Below are positions 11,304-14,672 of a DNA stretch of 64,000 bases, piece after piece. Every line of letters begins with the position of its first letter. Position 1 is the stretch's first letter. The notes under the pieces were generated by a model. It was not told the origin of the DNA. It saw only the letters and a program-made list of their open reading frames with translations, and ran no database searches. The translations under genes were made by a program, and so were the position numbers. This stretch comes from Flavobacterium bizetiae (lineage in GTDB: Bacteria; Bacteroidota; Bacteroidia; Flavobacteriales; Flavobacteriaceae), in NCBI RefSeq assembly GCF_902804475.1, contig NZ_CADCSU010000032.1, positions 23,962 through 87,961 of the forward strand, given 5' to 3'.

Positions 11304-11335
11304 AAAAAGCTGATAGATTTCTCTACCAGCTTTTT
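11304..11335 (-). terminator. Terminator downstream of the first Lys/Ala-rich small protein gene
   Basis: AAAAAGCTG (11304-11312) and CAGCTTTTT (11327-11335) around a 14-base loop. It resembles in sequence the hairpin at 13803-13830, which ends the paralogous pair, so gene and terminator seem to have been duplicated together. It also lies ahead of the metallophosphoesterase gene. Confidence 0.65.
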
Positions 11336-11398: not shown

Positions 11399-11587
11399 TT
11401 ATTTTTTAGCTTCTGGTTTAGCTGCTTCTGCTTTAACTTCAGCTTTTTTAGCTTTTTTGTCTGCTTTTTTCTCTTTTTTAGGAGCTTTTGCTTCTTTTGC
11501 CGGAGTTGTTTGTGCTGGAGTTGTTTGAGCGCTTACCATTGCAGTTGTTCCTAAAACAGCTACTGCTAACATTACTAATTTTTTCAT
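11399..11587 (-). CDS. Small exported Lys/Ala-rich protein (Asr-like composition), paralogue 1
   Basis: A 62-residue protein: signal peptide MKKLVMLAVAVLGTTAMVSA, then about 42 residues of Gln-Thr-Thr-Pro-Ala repeats and KEAKAPKKEKKADKKAKKAE-type sequence, very basic and probably disordered. A longer frame begins at 11623, but the ATG at 11587 puts the signal peptide at the N-terminus and matches the two paralogues at 13913 and 14147. No domain is recognised. In composition it recalls the E. coli acid-shock protein Asr. The upstream region holds a direct-repeat box (11653-11670) shared with the paralogue operon, next to a two-component system. Confidence 0.8.
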   Translation of the reverse strand: MKKLVMLAVAVLGTTAMVSAQTTPAQTTPAKEAKAPKKEKKADKKAKKAEVKAEAAKPEAKK

Positions 11588-11634
11588 GATTGAAGTGTTT
11601 ATGATTATTATTATTATTTTCATTTATTATACCT

Positions 11635-11670
11635 CAAAGATATATACGCTAAATGAAGACAAAATGAAGA
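11635..11670 (-). promoter_or_regulatory. Promoter with OmpR/PhoB-type direct-repeat box, Lys/Ala-rich gene 1
   Basis: Minus-strand -7 element TATCTTTG (11642-11635). Ten bases upstream lies ATGAAGACAAAATGAAGA (11653-11670 on the plus strand), that is ATGAAGA repeated with an 11-base period. The same 18 bases occur 10 bases from the -7 element of the other operon (14388-14423). An 11-base direct repeat replacing the -33 box is typical of OmpR/PhoB-family activation. Confidence 0.7.
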
Positions 11671-11696
11671 TTGCACTACTTTGAAAAAATTAACGT

Positions 11697-13037
11697 TTAA
11701 TTGTGTTTTATGATTTCAGGAAACAGCAATACAAAGGTTGTACCTTCATCAGGAGCCGAAGAAACCTTTATCTCGATATGATGAAAAGAGGCAATACTAT
11801 CAGCAATAGCAAGCCCTAATCCCTGCCCTTCCTGATCTGAACTAATTCTGGCAAACCTGCTGAATATTTTTTCGATTTGAGAAGCATTCATCCCAATTCC
11901 GGAATCTGCTATCGAAATAAAATAACGTTCCTCTACAAAACCATCTGTAACTATAATACTTCCGTTCGGTTTATTGTACTTTATTGCGTTCGTTACCAGG
12001 TTATAAATCAAAATATGAATAAGGGTTTTATTTCCTGTAAAGGAAAAATCATGCTCCATTTTATTTAAAAACTGAATTTCTCTATCATCAATTCGATCTT
12101 GCAAATCTTCCTGAAGATCTGTAACAATCTCATGAAAATTTACCTCTTCATTTGCTTCGTACTGATTGTTTTCGATTCTGGAAATCAGCAATAAATTATT
12201 GATGATTTTTTTTAGCATATCAAGAGTTCGCAATGAACCCGCAATTTTATCAAAAGCATTATCATCTAAAGAATCATTTTGAAGCAAATTCTCGAACTTG
12301 TTTTTAAGCAACGCAATAGGCGTTAACAATTCATGCGAAACATTTGATATAAACTGTTTTTCTTTTTTAAAAAGTTCCGCAATACGATCCATCATCTGAT
12401 TTAAAACAAAATCAAGTTCCCTAAAATCTCTCGATCTTGCTTTTATGGGTGTATGATCAAAAGCTTCAGGCTCGTTGACACGCCTTATTTTCGTATCAAT
12501 AATTTTGTAGAAAGGTTTTAGTAAATATTCAATATAAAAAGTATCTGCCAAAAAAGTAATCAGCAAAATAACCACAAAGACAATTATAATAAAGAACCTG
12601 ATAATAAATGTAAGATCCTTTACTTCACCAAGACTACTTCCTATTTCGAGTTGATATCCCTGATTATCGTATGTAAAATGATATTGAAGAATGCGATACT
12701 CATTTTCTTCTCCTTCTATAATACGGTATTCATTGGTAAAAACAGCTTTCTTTTGATTTGCTTTTTTTACAGAAGATTTAGAAAGTACCAAAAACTCACT
12801 ATGTAGTGTAGAAAATTGCGAGTAGGTTTCAGTCGAATCGTCTTCATTTTCTATAAAATCATCAATTTCATTTCGATCCAAATGCTGTATGAACTTTTGT
12901 TTCTTCTCCAGCAATCCATTATTAATATGTCGGTAAACAACATTTTCAACCAGAATGGGCAACATTAGCCATAAAACCAAAATCACTAACAATCTGGTTA
13001 GCGCATTAAAAATAGCCAATTGATGCTTTATCTTCAC
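11697..13037 (-). CDS. Sensor histidine kinase of an OmpR-type two-component system
   Basis: A 446-residue membrane kinase. Transmembrane helix 1 is at about residues 10-32. An extracytoplasmic sensor segment of about 110 residues, rich in acidic side chains (NEIDDFIENEDDSTETY), follows, then helix 2 at about 142-165. Next come a linker, the phosphoacceptor H-box FISNVSHELLTPIALLKN, the N-box NLVTNAIKYNKPNG and the G-boxes DSGIGM and GQGLGLAIAD. All catalytic motifs are intact. It lies 11 bases after the response regulator gene and is surely cotranscribed. The ligand is unknown; acidic sensor loops sometimes bind cations or basic peptides, which is only a suggestion. Confidence 0.92.
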   Translation of the reverse strand: MKIKHQLAIFNALTRLLVILVLWLMLPILVENVVYRHINNGLLEKKQKFIQHLDRNEIDDFIENEDDSTETYSQFSTLHSEFLVLSKSSVKKANQKKAVFTNEYRIIEGEENEYRILQYHFTYDNQGYQLEIGSSLGEVKDLTFIIRFFIIIVFVVILLITFLADTFYIEYLLKPFYKIIDTKIRRVNEPEAFDHTPIKARSRDFRELDFVLNQMMDRIAELFKKEKQFISNVSHELLTPIALLKNKFENLLQNDSLDDNAFDKIAGSLRTLDMLKKIINNLLLISRIENNQYEANEEVNFHEIVTDLQEDLQDRIDDREIQFLNKMEHDFSFTGNKTLIHILIYNLVTNAIKYNKPNGSIIVTDGFVEERYFISIADSGIGMNASQIEKIFSRFARISSDQEGQGLGLAIADSIASFHHIEIKVSSAPDEGTTFVLLFPEIIKHN

Positions 13038-13048
13038 AATGTTTTTAT

Positions 13049-13723
13049 TTACTCATTAATACGATAACCAACGTTTCTAACGGTTTCAAACCAATCTATT
13101 GCGGTATGTTTGTCTAGTTTTTTTCGAAGATTTCGAACATGAACATCAATAAAATTAGAATCTGAATTTACTTCGAGAATATCGCCCCAAATATGTTCGG
13201 TTAATTGTAATCTGGTAATTACGCGATTTTTGTTCAGCACTAAATACTGAAAAATATCAAATTCCTTTTTGGTAAGACTGATCGGAATATTATCGTAACT
13301 CACTTTATAATCCTGAAGCTGCAACAAAAAACCATGAATACTCAAACTGTTCACGGTAAAACCATGAATTCTTCGAATTACAGCAAATAATCTCGCACTA
13401 AGTTCTGTTAGCGCAAAAGGTTTCGTCAAATAATCATCGGCTCCCAAATGCAGTCCATTTATTCTGTCGTCTAGCTCTCCTCTGGCCGTAAGCACAATAA
13501 CCGCAATTTTTGATTTTGTTTTTCGAACTGTTTGCAAAACCTCAAATCCATCTCCGTCAGGCAAGCCAAGATCAAGAAGCATCGCATCATAATCGTTACT
13601 ATTTACCTCTTCAAGAGCATCGCTGCAATTATGAGCAATCTTGCAAACGTAACCTACGTTGCACAAAAAATCATAAACCTCTACGGCAAGTTCTTTATTA
13701 TCTTCAACAATTAGAATATTCAT
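13049..13723 (-). CDS. OmpR/PhoB family response regulator
   Basis: A 224-residue regulator. The receiver domain has the acidic pocket (VEDN), phospho-acceptor Asp in MLLDLGLPDGDGFEV (about residue 51), the Thr switch in VIVLTARGE and the Lys in YLTKPF. The C-terminal winged helix (about 125-222) includes LTKKEFDIFQYLVLNKNRVI and DVHVRNLRKKLDKH, the DNA-recognition part. It is first in the operon with its kinase. A perfect 16-base palindrome lies upstream (13768-13783). The shared direct-repeat boxes in front of the flanking small-protein genes are its most likely targets. Confidence 0.93.
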   Translation of the reverse strand: MNILIVEDNKELAVEVYDFLCNVGYVCKIAHNCSDALEEVNSNDYDAMLLDLGLPDGDGFEVLQTVRKTKSKIAVIVLTARGELDDRINGLHLGADDYLTKPFALTELSARLFAVIRRIHGFTVNSLSIHGFLLQLQDYKVSYDNIPISLTKKEFDIFQYLVLNKNRVITRLQLTEHIWGDILEVNSDSNFIDVHVRNLRKKLDKHTAIDWFETVRNVGYRINE

Positions 13724-13767
13724 AATACAGCGTTTAAGCGCAACTAAATTTAAGCAATTCTAAAAAA

Positions 13768-13783
13768 AATATTGCGCAATATT
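13768..13783. promoter_or_regulatory. Perfect 16-base palindrome upstream of the response regulator
   Basis: AATATTGCGCAATATT, self-complementary over all 16 bases, 45 bases upstream of the response regulator start. A degenerate -7 element (TAAATTTA, 13752-13745) follows 15 bases later on the minus strand, so the palindrome covers the -33 position. An operator is likely but the binding protein is unknown. Confidence 0.5.
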
Positions 13784-13802
13784 AAAAAAATTAACGAATC
13801 AA

Positions 13803-13830
13803 AAAAAGCTGATAAATTTCTTTATCAGCT
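13803..13830 (-). terminator. Terminator of the Lys/Ala-rich gene pair
   Basis: AAAGCTGATAAA and TTTATCAGCTTT around a 4-base loop, a perfect 12-base stem. It follows the gene at 13913-14095 and separates the pair from the two-component operon. It is related in sequence to the hairpin at 11304-11335. Confidence 0.75.
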
Positions 13831-13912
13831 TTCGCCATCTGCATTCTCATAATCATTACTTCTGTTTTGCCTCCTTTACAATTCTTCGAAAGCAAAACGA
13901 AAACAATTTCTA

Positions 13913-14095
13913 TTATTTTACTTTAGCTGCCTCTGCTTTTGGAACTTCTGTTTTTGCTTTTTTATCAGCTTTATTTTTGTGGTGTTTTGTTGCTTTAACT
14001 TCTTTTGCAGGCGCTGCCGGAGCTGGAGTTGTTTGAGCACTTACCATTGCAGTTGTTCCTAAAACTGTTACTAATAACATCAATAATTTTTTCAT
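13913..14095 (-). CDS. Small exported Lys/Ala-rich protein (Asr-like composition), paralogue 2
   Basis: A 60-residue protein: signal peptide MKKLLMLLVTVLGTTAMVSA, then QTTPAPAAPAKEVKATKHHK and a Lys/Ala tail ending EAAKVK. The signal peptide is nearly identical to paralogue 1 and the KEVKATKH core is shared with paralogue 3. The TTPAP and KATKHHKNK pieces closely resemble the composition of enterobacterial Asr. It is second in a two-gene unit with paralogue 3 (51 bases between them, no promoter seen in the gap) and is followed by a terminator. Confidence 0.78.
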   Translation of the reverse strand: MKKLLMLLVTVLGTTAMVSAQTTPAPAAPAKEVKATKHHKNKADKKAKTEVPKAEAAKVK

Positions 14096-14146
14096 GATTT
14101 CTAAATTTTTAAATTAATTAACCTTTTGTTTTATAATAACCTTTTC

Positions 14147-14344
14147 TTATTTTTTTACTTTAGCAGTCTCTACTTTAGCAGCTTCGCTTTTTTCTGATTT
14201 TACTTTTTTATCAGATTTGGTTTTTGGATGTTTTGTTGCTTTAACTTCTTTTGCAGGAGTTGCTTTAACATCTTTTGCAGGAAACGCACTAACCATTACA
14301 CTTGTGCCTAAAACTGCCACTAATAACATCAATAAATTTCTCAT
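14147..14344 (-). CDS. Small exported Lys/Ala-rich protein (Asr-like composition), paralogue 3
   Basis: A 65-residue protein: signal peptide MRNLLMLLVAVLGTSVMVSA, then FPAKDVKATPAKEVKATKHP, an internal repeat of PAK(D/E)VKAT, and a Lys-rich tail. First gene of the two-gene unit with paralogue 2. Its promoter has the 18-base direct-repeat box at the same spacing as that of paralogue 1. No cysteine or catalytic residue pattern is present; a charge-based or chaperone role in the periplasm is conceivable. Confidence 0.77.
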   Translation of the reverse strand: MRNLLMLLVAVLGTSVMVSAFPAKDVKATPAKEVKATKHPKTKSDKKVKSEKSEAAKVETAKVKK

Positions 14345-14387
14345 GATTTCTATTATTTAAAAAATTAATTCCTTTTATTTTATAGAT

Positions 14388-14423
14388 CAAATGTACCCCT
14401 GTAATATGAAGACAAAATGAAGA
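14388..14423 (-). promoter_or_regulatory. Promoter with OmpR/PhoB-type direct-repeat box, Lys/Ala-rich genes 3 and 2
   Basis: Minus-strand -7 element TACATTTG (14395-14388), 10 bases, then ATGAAGACAAAATGAAGA (14406-14423 on the plus strand), identical in sequence and spacing to the box at 11653-11670. Flanking sequence is otherwise unlike, so the box is conserved by function or by limited duplication. Confidence 0.7.
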
Positions 14424-14475
14424 AATTCCTGATCATAACTATTTTAACTTGACATTAACTATTGGTGCTTTTTTC

Positions 14476-14605
14476 ACCATATAAGTAATATAAGTTCATT
14501 TAATTTTATCAATGAAATTTTAGACGCACTGCTGTGCGTCTCTACAATGCAGTGCGTCTCTAGAGAATGCGTACTGCTAAAATGAACTTATATTACTTAT
14601 ATGGT
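14476..14605. mobile_element. MITE-like element with 26-base perfect terminal inverted repeats
   Basis: Bases 14476-14501 and 14580-14605 are perfect inverted repeats (they begin ACCATATAAGTAATATAAG). Between them lies a copy of the dispersed palindrome AGACGCACTGCTGTGCGTCT and a partial second copy. The element is 130 bases and encodes nothing; no clear target duplication is seen. It fills most of the gap before polA. Confidence 0.55.
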
Positions 14606-14672
14606 AAAAAATTTCTTTTTTGATTAATTTTTGAAACCCAATTGTTTATTTTTACAGACTAATATTTTTTTT

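Follow-up and report, generated by a model that had tools for sequence, protein, structure and literature searches.

A 64,000-nucleotide stretch of the Flavobacterium bizetiae genome (contig NZ_CADCSU010000032.1, positions 23,962 to 87,961; hereafter the window) carries a compact cassette, flanked by polA and a phosphoesterase gene and encoded on the minus strand, in which a two-component system is accompanied by small genes for basic proteins with export signals. The cassette runs in the order box 1, small genes A and B, a predicted terminator, an OmpR-type response regulator, its sensor kinase, box 2, small gene C and a second predicted terminator (Table 1). An earlier note on this DNA had placed the regulator and kinase amid three small exported genes, and the reading frames and Pfam domains confirm this arrangement. 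Its further claim, that the same 18 bases recur in two promoters with an 11-base period and 10 bases upstream of a TAnnTTTG element, also holds on the coding strand. The length of C is counted from the signal-peptide ATG, as a longer frame to 11623 was judged less likely.

Two sets of related loci were used for comparison. The named loci are the best 80 of 119 relatives in a scan of species genomes, all Flavobacterium or close to it, with boxes called at up to two mismatches; the footprint set comprises 96 loci, reduced to 75 after the removal of near-copies. In all 36 named loci with at least two upstream genes, the gap between the first two is free of a box (best candidates at 7-9 mismatches), and A and B are therefore placed under one promoter. 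Two boxes are thus predicted to serve three genes.

Table 1. Features of the cassette, in window coordinates
Feature	Position	Strand	Remarks
Box 1, TCTTCATTTTGTCTTCAT, 11-base-period direct repeat, A-B promoter	14406..14423	-	Kept in 78/78 named loci covering the place
-7 element TACATTTG, A-B promoter, 10 bases after box 1	14388..14395	-	TAnnTTTG positions near 2 bits, 70 dereplicated loci
Small gene A, 65 aa, signal peptide and basic mature part	14147..14344	-	
Small gene B, 60 aa, A paralogue, in A's transcription unit	13913..14095	-	Box-free A-B gap
Predicted intrinsic terminator 3' of B	13804..13833	-	Fold -15.1 kcal/mol, z -4.34
OmpR-type response regulator, 224 aa	13049..13723	-	Response_reg and Trans_reg_C (Pfam)
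Sensor histidine kinase, 446 aa, GTG start	11697..13037	-	HisKA and HATPase_c (Pfam)
Box 2, TCTTCATTTTGTCTTCAT, identical 18 bases to box 1, C promoter	11653..11670	-	Kept in 79/79 named loci covering the place
-7 element TATCTTTG, C promoter, 10 bases after box 2	11635..11642	-	Conserved, 74 dereplicated loci
Small gene C, 62 aa, signal peptide and basic mature part	11399..11587	-	
Predicted intrinsic terminator 3' of C	11304..11335	-	Fold -20.2 kcal/mol, z -5.38

The box and its linkage to the cassette

The exact pattern TCTTCATN4TCTTCAT occurs twice in the 5.83-Mb genome, both times at the cassette. Eight more places match with one mismatch and the reversed control gives 6 at up to one mismatch; these additional places are near chance. 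At the two-mismatch setting, the window count of 2 against a shuffled mean of 1.44 is unremarkable, and the weight lies in both sites being exact. The earlier note had proposed a search of other Flavobacterium genomes for the box and TAnnTTTG beside small Lys/Ala-rich genes, and this search was positive: of 199 Flavobacterium genomes, 53 contain the box with its -7 element at up to one mismatch, against none for the reversed control; most of the 53 have two sites 2.2-3.0 kb apart, and the cassette recurs in the 80 named loci. Outside the genus the box is at chance, with one site, within a reading frame, among 297 other-genus genomes and the reversed control in 3 genomes.

The kinase is present in 52/199 Flavobacterium genomes, all of which are among the 53 with the box (Fisher p about 2e-47, kinship ignored). 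The single genome with a box and no kinase, G017, has no gene within 150 bases downstream of the site. At E 1e-50 or better the kinase was found in none of 197 other-genus genomes, with at most 8 candidates scored per genome, and a plasmid search for it gave no match. Small protein C has matches in 28 of 101 genomes, 27 of them kinase-bearing and the other a weak match in G033 (E 6e-4). Among the 80 named loci, 78 have box 1 and 79 have box 2; the two stretches without box 1 start past its place, and the one without box 2 stops short of its place. Behind box 2 a C gene was found in 78 of 79 loci and missed in L102. The number of small genes upstream (n = 78) is one in 42 loci, two in 32, three in 3 and four in 1, as counted by a simple gene finder whose calls are sometimes rough (in L066 one frame runs across two units). 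Even distant loci, in which the kinase is 53-72% identical to that of the window, retain at least one site at up to one mismatch (17/17). The kinase, box and small genes are thus tightly linked across the genus by comparative sequence.

Conservation within the promoters is concentrated in the box. In the 75 dereplicated loci the half-sites reach 1.85-2.00 bits, compared with 0.81-1.07 in the flanks and 0.95-0.99 in the 10-base spacer, although positions belonging to the pattern are favoured by the procedure that picked the sites. A T two bases past half 2, outside the search pattern, reaches 2.0 bits in both boxes, indicating that the half-site unit is TCTTCATnT. The exact repeats and this conserved footprint bear out the proposal that one operator type is common to both small-gene promoters, and a tandem direct repeat with an 11-base period at the target promoters is, at the level of sequence, what is expected of an OmpR/PhoB-type operator. 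The promoter geometry is also kept: the start codon lies 38-44 bases past the -7 element in 76/78 first upstream genes and 38-46 bases past it in 78/78 C genes, and TTG stands in the -33 zone of 42/70 A-B and 36/74 C promoters. In two species (G133 and G082; loci L239 and L240) a box additionally precedes the regulator gene, as autoregulation would have it. Within the last 80 bases 5' of the regulator gene an exact TAnnTTTG is found in 4/98 loci, and a degenerate TAnAATTG was seen in several of 14 loci inspected. A palindrome 5' of this gene was considered as a conserved site and rejected, being present in 1/98 loci.

The cassette appears to come and go as a unit, since kinase-less relatives are without box and small genes (0 matches in all 15 such genomes) and often have an empty junction between polA and the phosphoesterase gene. 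In 8 of the 15, a gap of 153-222 bases, in which no gene was found, separates the phosphoesterase gene from a motif that lies six residues into polA; the distance is 474 bases in G019 and 1021 bases in G051, and polA falls outside the stretch in 5/15. Among the named loci polA is divergent and upstream in 77/80. A phosphoesterase tree of 69 rows (39 of 40 named loci, taking every second one, 15/17 distant loci, 14/15 kinase-less genomes and the window) requires at least eight gains or losses of the cassette, four of them forced by well-supported branches, with the bootstrap not settled; the nearest row to the window is Flavobacterium sp. SLB02, at 99% identity. Kinase-bearing genomes are large (median 5.25 Mb).

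Regulator, kinase and small exported proteins

The regulator and kinase have the composition of an OmpR/PhoB-type two-component system, with a receiver and Trans_reg_C beside HisKA/HATPase_c and a conserved Asp and His. PmrA/BasR is the second-best relative of the regulator, by sequence, among solved structures, and its base-reading residues are Asn188, Asn196 and Arg210 (PMC4660055). In the alignment these correspond to Asn190, Asn198 and Arg216 of the cassette regulator, which are invariant in 98/98 loci. The recognition-helix region is invariant at 16 of 18 positions, as against 49 of 118 in the receiver, and Asp51 is present in 98/98 regulators. The Klebsiella PmrA box is TCTTAATATTATCCTAAGC (PMC3973317); its first half-site, TCTTAAT, is one base off TCTTCAT, and the spacing between six-base half-sites is an equal five bases. 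PmrA-like contact residues together with a PmrA-like half-site make the regulator the natural reader of the box. The likeness to PmrA/PmrB (BasR/BasS) lies in the base-reading residues, half-site and spacing; unlike PmrA, the regulator scores 184 bits against a cut-off of 330 for the PmrA family NF007928, and its predicted targets here are genes for small basic proteins. The known targets of PmrA are lipid A modification genes. A mutation in an OmpR-family regulator of F. johnsoniae, C269T, is reported in PMC10197871 and is not tied to the cassette regulator, because codon 90 is Gly in both L092 and the window and no C is possible at its second position. L092 is the locus of F. johnsoniae strain CI04, which has the cassette.

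In 29 kinase sequences His235 is invariant. Residues 32-142 are taken as the extracytoplasmic part. They have a median net charge of -6, varying between -9 and +1, and acidic residues cluster around 51-75 and 104-116. His79 never varies and His37 hardly does, which is a lead towards pH sensing and no more. Sequence searches with the kinase gave matches only to its catalytic half or to the region immediately preceding that half. Its best NCBIfam match is PorY, a component of the PorX/PorY pair of the type IX secretion system, at 265 bits, which lies under the 350-bit PorY cut-off and does not place it in PorXY. A further difference from that pair is the partner, which is an OmpR-type DNA-binding regulator encoded next door and not PorX; PorX is not known to be of that type.

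The mature parts of the small proteins, cut by a simple rule, have medians of 45 (A) and 42 (C) residues, with 30-32% Lys, 17-25% Ala and a median net charge of +9 (A) and +8 (C). Median dN/dS values of 0.18-0.34, for signal and mature parts, indicate that these proteins are constrained by purifying selection. An alignment of 45 family members shows Gly13, Thr14, Met17 and Ala20 of the signal peptide and the Lys-Glu of a KEVKA core to be invariant. Residues 12-20 (LGTxAMVxA) hold four of the seven invariant family positions, more than a signal peptide usually needs. A, B and C stay under every Pfam and NCBIfam cut-off, and what the 45 members match in these collections is weak and mixed. The Asr model NF033636, with a cut-off of 50 bits, is likewise not reached: B scores 15.1 bits, and an E of 0.1 or lower is attained by 3/45 members, the lowest being 0.011. 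PepSY is absent from the 25 of 26 matched families listed for the 45 members at E 0.1, and from the matches of A, B and C at E 1. In listings of 46 matches and of 120 out of 128, the homologues with a named source are from Flavobacterium or Flavobacteriaceae, and some carry the name 'Acid-shock protein' in UniRef. From promoter to terminator the A/B and C units resemble each other (repeat families D3, D4, D5 and D9), and duplication is their likely origin, judging from this resemblance.

Box-like sites were also found away from the cassette. The kdsA promoter of the F. bizetiae genome has a one-mismatch composite site (kdsA, Kdo-8-phosphate synthase, was named by eye), and within the clade to which the window belongs the kdsA promoter (L133:3049-3084) carries a box-like site spaced as in the cassette from TACCTTTG. 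A search of 65 genomes yielded 60 kdsA promoters for comparison, leaving out G091, G112, G159, G168 and G175. Half-site mismatches in the 45 kinase-bearing genomes numbered one in 13, two in 8, three in 4, four in 5 and at least six in 15; among the 15 kinase-less genomes they numbered four in one and at least six in 14. G091 and G159, outside this comparison, carry a one-mismatch kdsA site in the genus-wide box scan. As a third target kdsA was rejected: the sequence that follows the box is more conserved than the box itself, and the site is missing from distant species that have the kinase. It is at best a weak, clade-limited target candidate on sequence grounds.

Among six one-mismatch boxes examined in the F. 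bizetiae genome, four lie in frames of at least 120 codons and two have no gene within 150 bases downstream. Single one-mismatch sites precede genes of 710 and 485 codons in G053 and G094, and G140 has one more such site, in L205. At L137:3044-3079 (G162) and L201:1453-1488 (G015) a box-like site lies in the promoter of an exported gene of about 156-165 residues, whose product is PepSY-like by eye only and which adjoins a gene for a LytTR-type regulator; G006 and G049 have similar sites. L200:1455-1631 (G094), away from the cassette, encodes a Lys-rich exported small protein of 58 aa with cysteines. It was rejected as a member of the cassette family, the cysteines marking a different kind of protein that belongs to another polycation family. 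Between the cassette and polA, at 14470-14611, lies a short element with 32-base inverted arms that are 97% complementary and 78 bases apart. Its arm has 49 matches in the genome at up to three mismatches, with 0 in the reversed control, and the element belongs to a MITE- or REP-like repeat family.

Proposed mechanism, rival explanations and meaning

The reading favoured here, to which a probability of about 0.6 is assigned, is that the regulator binds TCTTCATnTnnTCTTCATnT at both promoters, most likely activating two to five exported Lys/Ala-rich miniproteins that would protect the envelope. The system would thus be a dedicated one, its regulon confined to these two promoters. A cue outside the inner membrane would act on the acidic sensor domain, and the kinase would autophosphorylate at His235, as its family suggests. 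The phosphoryl group would pass to the invariant Asp51 of the regulator, a dimer of which, judged by position, would bind head to tail on the 11-base direct repeat and cover the place of the -33 element. TTG is inconsistently kept in the -33 zone under the box, which fits a promoter that depends on an activator. Transcription of A-B and C would follow, and terminator read-through, or the regulator gene's own box in two species, may also raise the regulator and kinase. The exported products, probably disordered polycations with a net charge of about +8 to +9, might then serve as an Asr-like envelope chaperone or as a counter-ion, which is speculative. The parts of this reading differ in strength. 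That the regulator acts on the small-gene promoters is very probable, and that it activates rather than represses them is probable; direct protection of the envelope by the products is tentative, at slightly less than even odds. Envelope stress is a putative signal.

Several observations weigh against this reading. The species counts behind the co-occurrence are non-independent; for 6 of the 17 distant loci (L237, L238, L241, L242, L252 and L253) the script reported no A-type gene; and the regulator gene is without a preceding box in 71/73 loci examined. The protective role draws on composition and analogy, with no family model reached. Linkage, moreover, is common to the regulator and the small genes and does not alone name the reader of the box, which leaves room for the proposal that the regulator represses, or that another transcription factor reads the boxes. 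Box position alone cannot separate activation from repression, and TTG does occur in about half of the -33 zones. This proposal is nevertheless improbable: the box lies over a -33 zone with no consistent TTG, as in activator-dependent promoters, the PmrA-like contact residues match the PmrA-like half-site, and a box precedes the regulator gene in two species. It is far less credible still that the boxes are alike solely through duplication of the two transcription units. The resemblance of the units from promoter to terminator fits such an origin, but duplication leaves the retention of the boxes unexplained: across 75 dereplicated loci, with kinase identities as low as 53%, the boxes have hardly changed and the spacer and flanks have diverged.

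The main rival concerns the products and not the operator. The small proteins may act on the kinase as ligands, for feedback or as a signal, in the way that DbfQ acts on DbfS and MgrB on PhoQ, binding the acidic sensor and tuning the system instead of protecting the envelope. Small exported regulators of adjacent kinases are known (PMC12714742; PMC8404706), the small genes flank the kinase, and basic products face a sensor with a median net charge below zero. Up to four tandem upstream copies and low-complexity mature parts, however, suit a bulk product better than a specific ligand, and not every sequence conserves the sensor charge. DbfQ is a 135-residue PepSY protein that binds its kinase (PMC12714742); the cassette shares with DbfQRS-like modules a small exported protein encoded beside a two-component system, and differs in that PepSY is not among the families listed for its proteins. 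A ligand role is unlikely, though the least unlikely of these alternatives. A more elaborate and rather doubtful reading is a closed charge-control loop, in which the adjacent polycation genes would be the whole regulon. The acidic sensor would read free negative charge or envelope damage, and the regulator would load the periplasm with up to five kinds of expendable Lys-rich polycations, which would replace magnesium on lipopolysaccharide and also neutralise the sensor and switch it off, with the cassette gained or lost whole.

To return to protection, its closest parallel is the RstAB/asr system of E. coli. In acid, RstA occupies the asr promoter and switches the gene on (PMC11135836), and Asr is described as a strongly acid-induced, disordered chaperone that supports outer-membrane integrity (PMC10746267). 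The earlier note had drawn an analogy with asr, which is fair as a statement of how the cassette may work, both systems pairing an OmpR-type regulator with an exported, basic, Lys/Ala-rich small protein; it does not extend to family membership, as the small proteins lie under the Asr cut-off. The systems also differ in that the cassette's small genes stand in tandem, and in that asr is one RstA target among others, whereas the recurrent sites of the cassette adjoin its own system. OmpR-type systems with small exported targets are already known. In the literature searched, no title or abstract was found that describes the cassette circuit, and no paper was found that joins Flavobacterium, acid shock protein and two-component, with most subscription papers outside the search. 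What was not met there is a cassette whose only well-conserved sites appear to adjoin itself and would drive tandem polycation genes.

About one in four of the sampled Flavobacterium genomes retains the cassette. Its operator, short and exact, has been conserved through much of the genus, and related species with an empty site provide a built-in control. Should the products prove Asr-like, a comparable response to envelope stress would have arisen outside the enterobacteria from sequences with no detectable kinship, here controlled by a regulator of its own and tuned by gene copy number. Exported Lys/Ala-rich proteins that are labelled 'Acid-shock protein' in databases would thereby gain a testable role.

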